From Roseivirga sp. (GTDB lineage: Bacteria > Bacteroidota > Bacteroidia > Cytophagales > Cyclobacteriaceae), in assembly GCA_029262895.1 (NCBI GenBank), contig JAJCYM010000042.1, forward strand, positions 1-64,000: 64,000 bases of DNA, given 5' to 3'. A program made the translations under genes and the position numbers. The notes below the pieces were generated by a model that was not told where the DNA came from, ran no database searches, and saw only the letters and a list, made by a program, of their open reading frames with translations. Shown one piece after another: positions 19,638 to 24,903 of the stretch (positions within the stretch are counted from its first letter, which is position 1; the number at the start of each line of letters is the position of its first letter).

Positions 19638-20030
19638 ATTTATTCACATTATTAACAACCCTATTACTAAGGTTAGTTAAATATAAGTTTTCATTATTAT
19701 TTATTAGTCGTGTGGATATGTGTATAACTCTCAATCCACAAGATATAGTTTGAAATGTACATCTTTTGTATATACGTAAGGTGCTTATCCACAGTTTATC
19801 AACTTCTAATCAATTGAAAATGAAATGTTTATGATTTAATTAGAATAATGACGCGATTTTGTGGATAATATAATTCAACTGAAAGGGAGTGGATATGGTT
19901 GGGATGGAATGGGGATAATATCGGGATTTTATACAAATGGTATGTTTATCAGTATGTGATGTTGAGGGAAGATTGAAAACTAACTGAAAGGAACAATGTT
20001 GTTAACAGGCGATACTTAGTTATCAACAGT
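19638..20030. other. Candidate chromosomal replication origin (DnaA-box cluster)
   Basis: This AT-rich gap has two perfect DnaA boxes: TTATCCACA at 19785-19793 and its complement TGTGGATAA at 19860-19868. One-mismatch copies lie at 19711-19719 (TGTGGATAT), 19719-19727 (TGTGTATAA), 19910-19918 (TGGGGATAA) and 20020-20028 (TTATCAACA, just inside the next gene). AT-rich stretches at 19691-19706 and 19822-19850 could serve as unwinding elements. mnmG, a classic origin neighbour, and two parS sites lie within 5 kb. No dnaA gene is in the window, which is common for Bacteroidota origins. Confidence 0.65.
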
Positions 20031-21662
20031 CATAGAAATGTTAATATCCGAGAGTTCCCAGTTTTTTCTGATGGTGATGAGTTTGGTCTTTTTAAAAGTA
20101 TCATAATAATAGGTTACTTTTTCCGGAGGAGTACGAGTTAGAATGTTTCCTGTATCCCAAATCCCATTTGCATTAGCATCATCAATGACTCTGACGAAAT
20201 AGCTATCGGTACTGAGAAATATAAAGGAGTATGAGGGTTGGTTATTGAGTTGGTCTATTACTTCCATTGTTTTTGGATTGACCAGTTGAATGATATAATT
20301 GGATGCATTGGTGGTCACGGACCCGCTTATTAGACCAGTATCGTTTAATGTGCTATACTTTATTGGTTTGGTTTTTAGAAGGCTTGAATCACCTTCAACT
20401 GAAATGAATGTGCCAGGCTTAATAATGAGCTCTAGACTTTCACCAGGAGCAATATGATCGGGAAGAAGAAGGTCCCAGGATAATTTGGTTTTATTGGTAT
20501 TCCAGATAAATGAAGTGTCCTGAGGATGAGCTGTGGTAATGGAATCGATTTGATAAAATAAACTGTCTTTTAAAAAGGTGTCGACTGGTTTTGAGAATTC
20601 AAGGCTGAAAGGAACTTCTGGTTGCAGGTCATTGGCATTCGGGAATATTTGAAAGGTAAACGGATCAGATTTGATTTTGGAATCAATGAAATAATAGCTT
20701 AATGTATCTGTGATTTGTGTTTCAAGTGAATCAGTAACAGTAACGATTAATTGTGTGGTATCGCCATAAACCTCTCGGGCATTGTATAATCGAATGCTGT
20801 TTGGAGTATTAAGAAGGTAAGGAGGTAAGGGGATATTGCTATCCAAATGTTCCAGGGAATAGTCTTTAATAGCGCGGGAAAAGGAAATGTCGTAGTATTT
20901 CCCAAAGGGCCGATTACTTGCCGATCGAATGGCCTGGGTATTGAGCTTTTGAGTAGTGAAGTCAATACCAGAGATGGAGGAATCAAGCCTGAGCGTATCC
21001 ACGTAGAAGCCATATGATTCGGTGTCTGTGTCGGCTTTTAGGTTGTCGTTTTGATCAACTACAGCGTAAATGAGGTAATCATTTGAAGGTAAGTTGGTCA
21101 AGTTGTATCGTCCTGCGGTGTCTGTTTTGGTGAAATAGGAGGCCGAACCGGTTGTAATGTCTAGTGAGTCGGTGAGGGCGTAAAGAGAAACGAGGGTGCC
21201 TTGCTTGGGATCCTGTGTGTAAAGGTCCAGAACGGTACCACTTATTTCCAATGAATCTATAAATGGACCTGTGGAAAAACTGAGCCTAAGATTGGGAGGA
21301 ACGTTTTTATTGGTGATGTCTTGAACAGTGTTTCCAAAGTTGATGGTATAAGTTGTGCTGTCAGCAAAGGGCTCTTGAAAGGTTAAGAGAACCGATCTCT
21401 TATTGACTTTTGTTTTAAAGCCAGCCTGAATGCTGGGTGTAATGATGAGATTGGTTTCTATGTTATTCGTTTTGACCCACTCGTCAAATTCCAGAAGGAC
21501 TGTATTACCAGAATAGTTTGTCTGTGCGCTATCAGGAACGGACATGAGAAGGGTGGGAGGTATTTCGTCAGTTGGGCCGCCAGATGGAGAGGATATGCGT
21601 GCACAAGCGAAAATTGTGAGCGCTGTGAAGAGAAAGAGAATGGAAAGTCGGTACCGCTTCAT
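20016..21662 (-). CDS. Ig-like domain lipoprotein
   Basis: The 548-residue protein has a type II signal peptide with lipobox cysteine Cys20 (TALTIFAC), then SPSGGPTDEIPPTLLMSVP, the start of an Ig-like SbsA/Big_5 domain. Further beta-rich segments include a carboxypeptidase-regulatory-like stretch around 140-220 (ISGTVLDLY..., DTAGRYNLTNLPS). It is probably anchored to the outer membrane; the absence of Asp after the Cys gives no retention hint. It overlaps the methyltransferase gene by 4 bp, so it is the last gene of the mnmG operon. Proteins of this layout are widespread in Bacteroidota with no defined function. Confidence 0.8.
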   Translation of the reverse strand: MKRYRLSILFLFTALTIFACARISSPSGGPTDEIPPTLLMSVPDSAQTNYSGNTVLLEFDEWVKTNNIETNLIITPSIQAGFKTKVNKRSVLLTFQEPFADSTTYTINFGNTVQDITNKNVPPNLRLSFSTGPFIDSLEISGTVLDLYTQDPKQGTLVSLYALTDSLDITTGSASYFTKTDTAGRYNLTNLPSNDYLIYAVVDQNDNLKADTDTESYGFYVDTLRLDSSISGIDFTTQKLNTQAIRSASNRPFGKYYDISFSRAIKDYSLEHLDSNIPLPPYLLNTPNSIRLYNAREVYGDTTQLIVTVTDSLETQITDTLSYYFIDSKIKSDPFTFQIFPNANDLQPEVPFSLEFSKPVDTFLKDSLFYQIDSITTAHPQDTSFIWNTNKTKLSWDLLLPDHIAPGESLELIIKPGTFISVEGDSSLLKTKPIKYSTLNDTGLISGSVTTNASNYIIQLVNPKTMEVIDQLNNQPSYSFIFLSTDSYFVRVIDDANANGIWDTGNILTRTPPEKVTYYYDTFKKTKLITIRKNWELSDINISMTVDN

Positions 21663-22540
21663 TTTTTTTGCAAGACGTAAATGAGGCTTGAGTATTCTTT
21701 AGTTCTACGAGCCTTTAAATTTGAAATGAATCCTGAATAAAATCCACGAAGAGGATAAATGCTACTCTTTCTATATTTTTCACTTAGTAGACTAACATAG
21801 TAACTGTCAAAATGCATGGGTAGTTGGGCTACAATTTTCAAACCAACTTTGTTGGCGAGGTTGAGCATACTCTTGCTATCAAAATGGTAAAGGTGGCGCG
21901 GTAAATCATAGGCGGCCCAGTCTGACTGATATTTTAGCGCATCATGAGATCGGAAATTTGGGACTGCTATAAGAATTACTCCTTGTTGAGTACTAAGGTT
22001 AACTAGTAAGCTTAGGGTATCAACTAAATCATGGACGTGTTCTAGCACATGGAAGAGTGTGATTGCCTGAAATGAATTCTGTGTGAACCCGTCTAAGGAT
22101 TGATATACATTTTCCAAACCAACCAAACCTCCAGCGATTTGGCGTGCCTCCGAATCTGGTTCAATTCCTTTGACAGCCCAGTTTCTTGATTGAGCATGTT
22201 TGATGAAATGGCCAGTGCCGCAACCATAATCGAGCAGATTGCCGTGTAGGGCGTATCTGTTAAGAAGACTTAACTTTTGTTTTAAAGTATGGGCTCTGAC
22301 GAGGCGATAGATAAAGTTTACAGGAGAATTCGATTTATTCGAATGGCTCACATAACTATCTGATTTATAGTAGTTTATGATAGAATTGGGGTCTGGTCTC
22401 GGATTAGTAAGCAGGAATTGACATTGCTGACATTGTTGCACGGCAAACTGCTCTTGAGTTACCAGATGATCTGTGCATTGCAACCATTCTCTGAATTGTG
22501 TTGATGAGCAGATCGGACAGGTTGTGATGGTTTCCAACAT
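21659..22540 (-). CDS. Class I SAM-dependent methyltransferase with N-terminal zinc ribbon
   Basis: The 293-residue protein has a CPICSST...CQQCQF zinc-ribbon-like pair of CxxC motifs (residues 8-11 and 38-41). After it come the SAM motif LLDYGCGTGHFIKHA (about 106-120) and FHVLEHVHDL, as in Methyltransf_23 proteins. The substrate is unknown. It overlaps mnmG by one base upstream and the lipoprotein gene by 4 bp downstream, so the three are almost certainly one operon. A tRNA- or lipid-directed role cannot be chosen from sequence. Confidence 0.83.
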   Translation of the reverse strand: MLETITTCPICSSTQFREWLQCTDHLVTQEQFAVQQCQQCQFLLTNPRPDPNSIINYYKSDSYVSHSNKSNSPVNFIYRLVRAHTLKQKLSLLNRYALHGNLLDYGCGTGHFIKHAQSRNWAVKGIEPDSEARQIAGGLVGLENVYQSLDGFTQNSFQAITLFHVLEHVHDLVDTLSLLVNLSTQQGVILIAVPNFRSHDALKYQSDWAAYDLPRHLYHFDSKSMLNLANKVGLKIVAQLPMHFDSYYVSLLSEKYRKSSIYPLRGFYSGFISNLKARRTKEYSSLIYVLQKK

Positions 22541-24405
22541 TAGCGTCCCATATAAACCATGAGCACAGAAATATCGGCTGGAGAAACACCACTGATGCGT
22601 GACGCTTGACCGAGGGTCTTGGGACGAATTTTATTGAATTTTTCTTTGGCTTCAGACGATAGCGCTGGGATTGAGTCAAAGTTAAAATCGATCTGGATCA
22701 TGTAGTCTTCAAGTGTTTTGATTTTGTCTGCCAGCTTCTGCTCCTTGTCTATATAGTCTTCATATTTCAGGAGTATGTCGGCTTGTTCGAGAACTTCAGG
22801 CTCATACTTGGCGAGGTAGTCTGCGGTGTCTTTGCCAAAGGAGGACAGGTCGTAGATATGGACCTGTGGTCGTTTAAGCAATTTGGCATACGTGGACTTC
22901 TCTTTAATTCCAGCGGTGTCAAGACTTTCAAGAGTAGGGTTGGCTTCTGAGGGTGATGCCTTCTTTTGCTTGAGGTCATTGATAAGTTTAGCAGTGTTTT
23001 CAGCCTTTTGTTGTGTGGCTTCGAGTCTTTGATTTGAGGCAAGGCCTATTTCATGACCTTTTGGTGTTAAGCGAATATCCGCGTTGTCTTGCCTTAATAG
23101 GATTCGGTACTCTGCACGCGAGGTGAACATGCGGTAGGGTTCCTCTGTGCCCTTGTTGATTAAGTCGTCAATTAGTACGCCAATGTATGCTTCTGATCTG
23201 TCCAGGACGAAGTCGGACAATTGCTTGGTTTTGCGGTGGGCATTGATTCCTGCCATAAGACCTTGACAAGCCGCCTCTTCATATCCGGTTGTACCGTTGA
23301 TCTGCCCGGCAAAATAGAGGTTGTCTATTAATTTGGTCTCCAGCGTTTGGCTTAATTGAGTTGGTGGAAAATAGTCGTACTCAATGGCATAACCTGGCCT
23401 GAACATCTTTGCATTTTCAAAGCCTGCAATTTTTCGCATGGCGGCCATTTGTACATCTTCCGGAAGAGATGTTGAAAAGCCATTGACATATATTTCAACG
23501 GTATTCCAACCTTCAGGCTCAACAAAGATTTGATGTCTGGTTCGTTCGGCAAAGCGATTGATTTTGTCCTCTATAGAAGGACAATATCTTGGGCCGATAC
23601 CCTGAATTCTTCCATTGAACATGGGAGATTGGTCAAAACCCGTTTCTAGAATGAAATGAACATCGGGATTGGTATAGGTGATATAACAGCTCTTTTGCTT
23701 TGCTAGTGAAGTCGTTTGTTCCGAGTAGGAGAATTTACCGGGTTGGGTATCTCCTGCTTGCTCTTCCATTTTGCTATAGTCCAGAGAGCGGCCATCTACT
23801 CTTGGTGGCGTGCCAGTTTTCATCCGGCCCGATTCAAAACCCAGGGAAACAAGCTGTTCCGTAATTCCTTTAGCTGCTCTTTCTCCAGTTCTACCACCGC
23901 CAAATTGCTTCTCGCCAATATGGATGATTCCGTTGAGGAAGGTGCCATTGGTTAGAATAACTGCATCTGCACGAAATTCAATTCCCATGCCAGTGGTTAC
24001 CCCTATTACTTTTTGGCCTTCTGTTAATATGCCAGTTACCATTTCCTGCCAAAAGTCCACATTCGGATTGGCTTCCAATGCGAGTCTCCATTCCTCTGCG
24101 AATCGCATGCGGTCATTTTGTGTTCGAGGACTCCACATTGCCGGGCCCTTAGATTTGTTCAGCATGCGAAATTGGATCATGGATTTATCCGTGATAATTC
24201 CTGACATTCCACCAAGGGCGTCTATCTCCCTTACAATTTGGCCTTTGGCCACACCTCCCATTGCCGGGTTGCAAGACATTTGGGCAATGGTGTTCATGTT
24301 CATTGTGATTAACAACACTTTCGAACCCATTTGGGCTGCAGCATGTGCGGCTTCACAACCGGCATGGCCAGCTCCAACTACTATTATGTCGTATTTCTCA
24401 AACAT
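22540..24405 (-). CDS. mnmG: tRNA uridine-5-carboxymethylaminomethyl(34) synthesis enzyme MnmG (GidA)
   Basis: The 621-residue protein has the FAD dinucleotide-binding motif VVGAGHAGCEAA (9-20), the MnmG signature CNPAMGGVAKGQIVREIDA (about 45-63), GTFLNGIIHIG, and RPGYAIEYD near 350. It has the normal full length with the C-terminal helical domain that binds MnmE. With MnmE it modifies U34 of certain tRNAs using methylene-tetrahydrofolate. The start ATG at 24405 lies 12 bp from a parS site. The gene is frequently adjacent to the replication origin in bacteria. Confidence 0.97.
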   Translation of the reverse strand: MFEKYDIIVVGAGHAGCEAAHAAAQMGSKVLLITMNMNTIAQMSCNPAMGGVAKGQIVREIDALGGMSGIITDKSMIQFRMLNKSKGPAMWSPRTQNDRMRFAEEWRLALEANPNVDFWQEMVTGILTEGQKVIGVTTGMGIEFRADAVILTNGTFLNGIIHIGEKQFGGGRTGERAAKGITEQLVSLGFESGRMKTGTPPRVDGRSLDYSKMEEQAGDTQPGKFSYSEQTTSLAKQKSCYITYTNPDVHFILETGFDQSPMFNGRIQGIGPRYCPSIEDKINRFAERTRHQIFVEPEGWNTVEIYVNGFSTSLPEDVQMAAMRKIAGFENAKMFRPGYAIEYDYFPPTQLSQTLETKLIDNLYFAGQINGTTGYEEAACQGLMAGINAHRKTKQLSDFVLDRSEAYIGVLIDDLINKGTEEPYRMFTSRAEYRILLRQDNADIRLTPKGHEIGLASNQRLEATQQKAENTAKLINDLKQKKASPSEANPTLESLDTAGIKEKSTYAKLLKRPQVHIYDLSSFGKDTADYLAKYEPEVLEQADILLKYEDYIDKEQKLADKIKTLEDYMIQIDFNFDSIPALSSEAKEKFNKIRPKTLGQASRISGVSPADISVLMVYMGR

Positions 24406-24417
24406 GATTTTGATAAG

Positions 24418-24433
24418 TGTTCCACGTGAAACA
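24418..24433 (+). promoter_or_regulatory. parS site 1 (ParB-binding)
   Basis: The 16-mer TGTTCCACGTGAAACA is identical to the classic Bacillus subtilis parS and fits the consensus TGTTNCACGTGAAACA with no mismatch. ParB binds such sites and spreads to organise origin segregation. It lies in the 72 bp gap between mnmG and ybeY. Confidence 0.9.
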
Positions 24434-24453
24434 GTCAGACCAATTTAGCTTAC

Positions 24454-24469
24454 TGTTTCACGTGGAACA
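24454..24469 (-). promoter_or_regulatory. parS site 2 (ParB-binding), inverted copy
   Basis: The plus strand reads TGTTTCACGTGGAACA, the exact reverse complement of site 1. The two sites, with 2 flanking bases each, form an 18-bp perfect inverted repeat separated by 16 bp. It could also fold as a hairpin in the ybeY-mnmG transcript, but the exact parS match makes ParB binding the better explanation. Confidence 0.9.
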
Positions 24470-24477
24470 TGTGCCGT

Positions 24478-24903
24478 TCAAATTTGCAGCAAAGATAAGC
24501 AGGCTTCTTCTTTTTCTCTCATTAAGACTTTTTGTTCAGGAGTTTTATCGTCCCAACCAAGAAGGTGAAGCACGCCATGGATCATAACCCGATGTAATTC
24601 GCTTTCCAATGGTAGCTTGAGATCGTTGGCATTTTCCTGAACTCGTTCCAGAGAAATGAAAATGTCGGCCTCTATAGTTGATGCTTCATCACTATTGTCA
24701 AAGGTGATAATATCAGTTAAATAGTCATGATCTAGGTAGTCCCGATTTATTTTTAATAAATACTTGTCTGAACAAATAATATAATTCAACTGCTCAATAT
24801 TGTAGTCCAATGACGCGATTACTTGGCTAATCCATTTGATAAGTTGTGAAGAATGTGGGAGTTCAAAATCGACATCTTCTGTAAAGAAGTGGATTTGGCT
24901 CAT
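24478..24903 (-). CDS. ybeY: Endoribonuclease YbeY (rRNA maturation)
   Basis: The 141-residue protein has the YbeY zinc site in HGVLHLLGWDDK: His109 and His113, with Asp119 where E. coli has a third His. The preceding YLTDIITFDN segment (61-70) is also diagnostic. YbeY is a metal-dependent single-strand RNase involved in 16S rRNA 3' processing and ribosome quality control. The length is slightly short but normal for Bacteroidota. It abuts the upstream ATPase gene without a gap and is followed by the two parS sites. Confidence 0.93.
   Translation of the reverse strand: MSQIHFFTEDVDFELPHSSQLIKWISQVIASLDYNIEQLNYIICSDKYLLKINRDYLDHDYLTDIITFDNSDEASTIEADIFISLERVQENANDLKLPLESELHRVMIHGVLHLLGWDDKTPEQKVLMREKEEACLSLLQI

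Follow-up and report, generated by a model that had tools for sequence, protein, structure and literature searches.

A closely spaced pair of parS sites beside mnmG in a Roseivirga genome and the spacing preference of neighbouring sites in Bacteroidota

The DNA analysed here, hereafter the window, is a stretch of 64,000 nucleotides from the Bacteroidota bacterium Roseivirga sp. (GenBank assembly GCA_029262895.1, contig JAJCYM010000042.1, positions 1 to 64,000 of the forward strand). Between the start of mnmG (24405) and the stop of its upstream neighbour ybeY (24478) lies a gap of 72 bp, which holds two copies of a parS-like sequence facing each other (Table 1). Both copies agree with the 16-bp consensus TGTTNCACGTGNAACA without a single mismatch, and the identity of the arms runs two bases inward beyond each 16-bp site, giving arms of 18 bp. 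A sequence-only reading of the same DNA had reported two perfect parS sites, their coordinates, the 18-bp inverted arms and the 72-bp gap, and all of these proved correct when the sequence was read again. With up to two mismatches allowed, the window contains six strand-wise parS matches, four of which stem from these two sites, each being near-palindromic and so scored on either strand, as compared to a mean of 0.13 and a largest value of 3 in the shuffled window. A parS-like palindrome with two mismatches (TGTTTCAAGTGAATCA) is present at 20718-20733 within the gene at 20016-21662, probably by chance. The closest MnmG among the matches listed belongs to Roseivirga (84%), and the organism is read as Roseivirga/Fulvivirga-like.

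Table 1. Coordinates of the features discussed, given as positions in the window
Feature	Position	Strand	Remarks
parS site 1, TGTTCCACGTGAAACA	24418..24433	+	Exact consensus match; mnmG-proximal, 12 bp from the mnmG start codon
parS site 2, exact reverse complement of TGTTCCACGTGAAACA	24454..24469	-	ybeY-proximal, 48 bp from the mnmG start codon
18-bp perfect inverted repeat	24418..24469		Arms 24418-24435 and 24452-24469; read from the sequence
mnmG (gidA)	22540..24405	-	NCBIfam TIGR00136, 842.5 bits; parS sites flank the gene in most mapped phylum genomes
ybeY	24478..24903	-	PF02130, TIGR00043; upstream gene
Cluster of four exact DnaA boxes, TTATNCACA	19640..19868		Intergenic; probable oriC; position kept in relatives

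The draft genome comprises 5,785,651 bases in 102 contigs and is 96% complete, so that additional parS sites could be absent from the assembly. Within it, the pair in the window provides the only sites with up to one mismatch. As a control, the consensus read backwards gave three matches in the draft genome at up to one mismatch and none without mismatch, against these two parS sites lying 36 bp apart. At up to one mismatch, the site count alone therefore shows no genome-wide excess over the control, and the evidence lies in the exactness and closeness of the two sites instead of their raw number.

The genome also encodes the proteins expected to act on such sites. A single match to the ParB helix-turn-helix family PF17762 is found, on contig 91 (6.4e-36). 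This ParB-type protein of 301 aa has a ParB/Spo0J domain, scores 186 bits with TIGR00180 against a cut-off of 58, and has ParB, Spo0J and Noc chains as its solved relatives. Its highest-scoring NCBIfam model is that of Noc (TIGR04285), at 246 bits and hence below the cut-off of 315; the gene is read as parB rather than noc because it is the sole one of its kind in the genome and adjoins parA. The adjoining parA-type gene encodes a 255-aa ATPase with the motif KGGVGKTT, matched among its 25 best NCBIfam matches listed by ParA/RepA/MinD-type and other P-loop models, all below cut-off. Additionally, a full-length SMC is encoded on contig 43 (1064.5 bits, cut-off 567). The sequence-only reading had proposed searching the genome for further copies and for parAB, and had named the lack of a chromosomal ParB or an even scatter of parS copies as findings that would speak against it. 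Neither was encountered, as a parA-parB pair is present on contig 91 and no copies are scattered elsewhere at up to one mismatch.

Related loci were represented by the best 80 of at least 569 MnmG-coding stretches, mostly from Cytophagales according to the record titles, which make 81 loci together with the window; some look like near-duplicates by title and gene positions (L033/L034, L026/L028 and L036/L037). The ybeY gene lies upstream of mnmG in 78 of the 80 relatives, the exceptions being L036, where the contig ends, and L052. Within 600 bp upstream of mnmG, sites with up to one mismatch occur in 78 of the 81 loci; 55 of these have at least two, with a maximum of five, 23 have a single one, and the remaining three loci have none. 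For exact sites only, the corresponding figures are 65 loci with at least one, 30 with at least two and 16 with none. The presence of single-site and site-free loci indicates that the pair is non-essential. Moreover, when some 8-10 kb around mnmG are considered, 148 of the 154 sites with up to one mismatch fall inside those 600 upstream bp. The earlier view that such tight pairing between genes of an operon is out of the ordinary is contradicted by these counts; paired sites at mnmG are common in related loci, as appears from the conservation check that the same reading had suggested.

The cluster of DnaA boxes that had been noticed near parS was recovered as four exact boxes, situated about 4.5 kb from the parS pair. 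DnaA boxes of the relatives accumulate 4.25-5.0 kb downstream from the start of mnmG, with 36, 68 and 30 boxes in the three bins of 250 bp (79-80 loci); outside this region a bin holds on average 0.019 boxes per locus. A strict DnaA box at +4.1 to +5.1 kb occurs at least once in 57 of 79 loci and at least twice in 35, and is lacking in 22. From the cluster and the box density in relatives, we infer a conserved probable oriC at a distance of about 4.5 kb from the parS pair. The cumulative GC skew of the window reaches its minimum of -0.82 at 18-20 kb, but a value nearly as low, -0.79, recurs at 48-50 kb, which makes the skew weak evidence for an origin. The dnaA gene is located on contig 64 and is thus not near the parS sites in this assembly.

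On the basis of a consensus pair found only here, the presence of ParA-ParB and SMC, the DnaA-box cluster about 4.5 kb away and the retention of sites at mnmG, the two sites are very probably (probability of about 0.93) a chromosomal centromere, parS, an element of an ordinary kind. The part of the sequence-only interpretation that saw chromosomal parS near oriC is thus upheld by the uniqueness of the sites and the presence of ParB, whereas the significance it gave to the unusual pairing, the inverted arrangement and a hairpin is not. In the current view, ParB loads at parS as a CTP clamp and then slides away from the site. According to established knowledge of ParABS systems, ParB dimers would bind each site and then close into CTP clamps, the closed clamps would slide into the adjacent DNA and recruit SMC, and ParA would move the freshly copied origin.

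The link between parS and mnmG extends across the phylum. An exact parS is present in 302 of 395 sampled phylum genomes, and mnmG and parB were located in 61 genomes picked from those with an exact site so as to cover families; the phylum figures for the mnmG link accordingly hold only for genomes with an exact parS. Coordinates of parS were available for 56 of the 61 (G012, G053, G130, G045 and G099 were left out). In 46 of the 56, mnmG has an exact site at a distance of no more than 700 bp, and in 44 of no more than 200 bp. Of these 46 genomes, 21 have sites only 5' of mnmG, 16 only 3' and eight on both sides, and one (G147) has its site inside the gene. Among the ten exceptions, six have the site at 7 to 118 kb and four on another contig. 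In 44 of the 56 genomes, parB is on a different contig from parS; 11 others have the two separated by at least 484 kb in linear coordinates, and in G109 the distance is 53 kb. Linkage of gidA with parAB is known in other phyla. The location at mnmG with a distant parB may represent an old origin-region linkage that was kept while parAB moved. The phylum-wide association between parS and mnmG, with a distant parB, offers a simple marker of the origin and centromere region in a group where dnaA need not mark the origin.

The 93 sampled phylum genomes without an exact 16-bp parS include many of families f17 and f35. Pairs of a 14-bp core are present in at least four genomes lacking the exact site (G070, G188, G326 and G345), and the outer base may therefore have changed in some of them.

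Comparison with known systems shows both shared and divergent features. The Bacillus subtilis-type ParABS system (Spo0J/Soj), as described in passages of PMC7022226, has the 16-bp parS consensus TGTTNCACGTGAAACA; the same consensus, the same ParB family, SMC and origin-near sites are found here. Unlike that system, the Bacteroidota genomes mapped here have parB far from parS, and their sites often form close pairs at mnmG with a spacing that tends to the helical repeat. The parS1-4 sites of Pseudomonas aeruginosa, according to parts of PMC4368675, are likewise few and close to oriC, whereas the present genome has a single pair with a spacing of 36 bp and lacks further sites at up to one mismatch. 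Furthermore, a Hi-C study of gut bacteria including two Bacteroidetes states, in passages of PMC10197239, that clustered parS marks the origin and that the origin does not always lie with dnaA. Clustered sites with dnaA apart from them, on another contig, are also seen in this genome. That study found no known condensin in its Bacteroidetes, while this genome has a full SMC.

The distances between neighbouring sites are not evenly distributed. In the 81 loci, centre-to-centre spacings cluster at 36-38, 44-46 and 55-56 bp, and neighbouring sites overall show peaks near 37, 46, 57 and 68 bp. When each genus of the 81 loci contributes a single value (29 genera or MAG labels, taken from the record titles, each MAG without a genus name counting as its own genus), a period of 10.5 bp gives a Rayleigh z of 6.8 and a null p of 0.00075. 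The two sites of the window, 36 bp apart from centre to centre or 3.43 turns at 10.5 bp, agree with a half-turn preference. A survey of 345 genomes of the class that includes the family of the window, covering pairs 18-77 bp apart, yielded 73 pairs from 60 genomes, 38 genera and 21 families. Among all periods scanned between 6 and 20 bp, the best fit was at 10.5 bp (10.4 without the own family) with a phase of 5.0-5.1, that is, half a turn.

The half-turn prediction was set down before a second survey of 371 genomes of the phylum; this replication was partly unblind, as five out-of-class pairs were already in the earlier list of spacings. Outside the class, 53 pairs from 23 genera and 13 families were obtained, a set disjoint from the class set; some of the 80 relatives' loci may duplicate surveyed class or phylum genomes. 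For all pairs, for distinct combinations of genus and spacing, and for one pair per genus, respectively, the best out-of-class periods were 10.4, 10.7 and 10.5 bp (phase 4.8-5.0), the undirected null p values 0.0002, 0.0064 and 0.023, and the p values directed to the half turn 0.0002, 0.0014 and 0.0038. Equal weight per genus gave p 0.0005 in the class and 0.008 outside it, and the kernel width of the null had little influence on the result. The half-integer half of the turn holds 53 of the 73 class pairs, 37 of the 53 out-of-class pairs and 33 of 58 extra same-class pairs. Three non-adjacent pairs were left out of the phasing test, two out-of-class (G279, 75 bp; G003, 77 bp) and one same-class (G289, 75 bp). 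In the phylum survey, the 18-47 bp pairs of G008, G050, G058 and G325 are missing or incomplete, and the spacings of G003 (41, 36 and 37 bp) and G013 (46 bp) were computed from site coordinates.

The phasing is a preference and not a strict rule, with R or a mean cosine of about 0.3-0.4. The periodic signal might instead be an artefact of shared ancestry or of an ancestral spacing with two peaks, having nothing to do with helical geometry. Consistent with such an origin, the spacings 37 and 46 are each common among related genomes, part of the replication was known beforehand, the undirected out-of-class test limited to a single pair per genus gives p 0.023, and the 58 extra same-class pairs, all but two from genus g14, show no significant phasing (p 0.21 undirected, 0.11 directed). 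Against it, the scan peaks at nearly the same period and phase inside and outside the class, the spacing groups near 57 and 68 fit equally well, and the signal survives equal weighting of families (p 0.001 for 21 families in the class and p 0.001 for 13 outside). Such an artefact is considered unlikely. Genus g14 itself, with 69 pairs, is weakly phased (R 0.19, null p 0.087, directed 0.028) and has its best scanned period at 20 bp. Genomes of g14 contain arrays that reach about eight sites within at most 440 bp, for instance eight parS cores at G206:C1:2548308-2548747 and seven at G343:C1:3078467-3078822. A separate group of three cores with near-identical spacers, at G279:C15:312269-312357, looks like a recent tandem duplication of a parS unit.

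If helical geometry underlies the preference, neighbouring sites held about (n + 1/2) turns apart would have ParB dimers on the DNA simultaneously, affecting each other by contact or clash, and the pair would act as one loading unit, as the spacing statistics suggest. The clamp-and-slide model of ParB gives no reason for a helical phase between neighbouring sites; a replicated half-turn preference suggests two dimers co-present at the sites, on opposite faces, and influencing each other. We tentatively propose that parS neighbours in Bacteroidota may be helix-phased units with their dyads on opposite DNA faces, on which ParB dimers cooperate or avoid a clash before sliding. The result would be a two-site centromere with a geometric code, held at mnmG with parAB elsewhere, a proposal whose chances we place at somewhat below even. 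The half-turn phase preference of neighbouring parS sites is new to us. In the titles and abstract openings of the literature matches listed, no mnmG-linked or helix-phased parS in Bacteroidota appears; this scope excludes Livny et al. 2007, the main parS survey. The term mnmG is absent from the main text of PMC10197239, as is helical spacing from the passages cited above.

The position of the sites raises the alternative that ParB here mainly regulates the expression of mnmG and ybeY and does not serve chromosome segregation. The nearest site is less than 25 nt from the mnmG start codon in 66 of the 81 loci, and ParB of P. aeruginosa is reported to repress promoters adjoining parS3 and parS4 (PMC5521831). 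However, across the 56 mapped genomes the nearby sites are often only 3' of the gene (16) or on both sides of it (8), and ten genomes have none within 700 bp. Moreover, since no other sites were found in the draft genome, the window pair must carry the segregation role, if any exists. A mainly regulatory function is hence very improbable.

The sequence-only reading had noted that the pair could form an RNA hairpin. As a further alternative, such a hairpin in the ybeY-mnmG mRNA might control translation or termination of mnmG, the likeness to parS being secondary. A strong fold is predicted for the RNA of the gap (-31.8 kcal/mol, z -6.74), and the structure stops some 12 nt short of the mnmG start codon. 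Perfect inverted repeats make up 20 of 36 exact neighbouring pairs; among 68 neighbouring pairs, perfect inverted identity occurs in 21 against 12.1 in shuffles, but direct identity is similarly in excess (21 against 12.8), as expected from shared ancestry. Palindromic sites yield inverted pairs for free, so the perfect inverted repeat is not a conserved feature, and the eight exact neighbouring pairs in which both sites are non-palindromic comprise four inverted and four direct ones. Arm pairing is therefore not kept in relatives, 23 of the 81 loci having a single site as well, and in 16 of the 56 mapped genomes the nearby sites lie only 3' of mnmG. Since orientation is not conserved, and since each parS is nearly palindromic so that two adjacent sites can always pair, the hairpin is best seen as a by-product. 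An intrinsic terminator was rejected, as direct reading of the window sequence found no T-run after the hairpin. Apart from the two N positions, which are Y and R, the inner core of 148 counted sites is invariant to two decimals, and the permitted single mismatch in relatives' sites falls on the outermost base; such an invariant core is to be expected if the sites are recognised as DNA, and it argues against an RNA role. Control of mnmG by an RNA hairpin is thus extremely improbable.

Two exact sites break the Y/R rule, namely TGTTACACGTGAAACA at G147:C1:59118, inside mnmG, and TGTTTCACGTGCAACA at G340:C23:142260. A core pair at C1:65335-65404 of G147 may be the real sites of that genome.

Chromosomal-type parS cores also occur in at least 176 viral-contig loci of IMG/VR (L085-L260) with two to eight cores each. 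A tblastn search of these loci, which are partial stretches, found a relative of this genome's ParB in one and MnmG in none of the 176 listed. It is possible that phages with orphan parS use the ParB of the host; as another possible reading of the rare ParB matches, viral ParB genes may have diverged or lie outside the fetched stretches. The idea that viral contigs share the chromosomal half-turn phase was rejected: the 172 non-redundant viral pairs show R 0.15 at 16-90 bp (null p 0.026) with another phase (2.4) and R 0.12 at 30-78 bp (p 0.17), the half-integer half of the turn accounts for 80 of the 172, and their commonest spacing is 24 bp.
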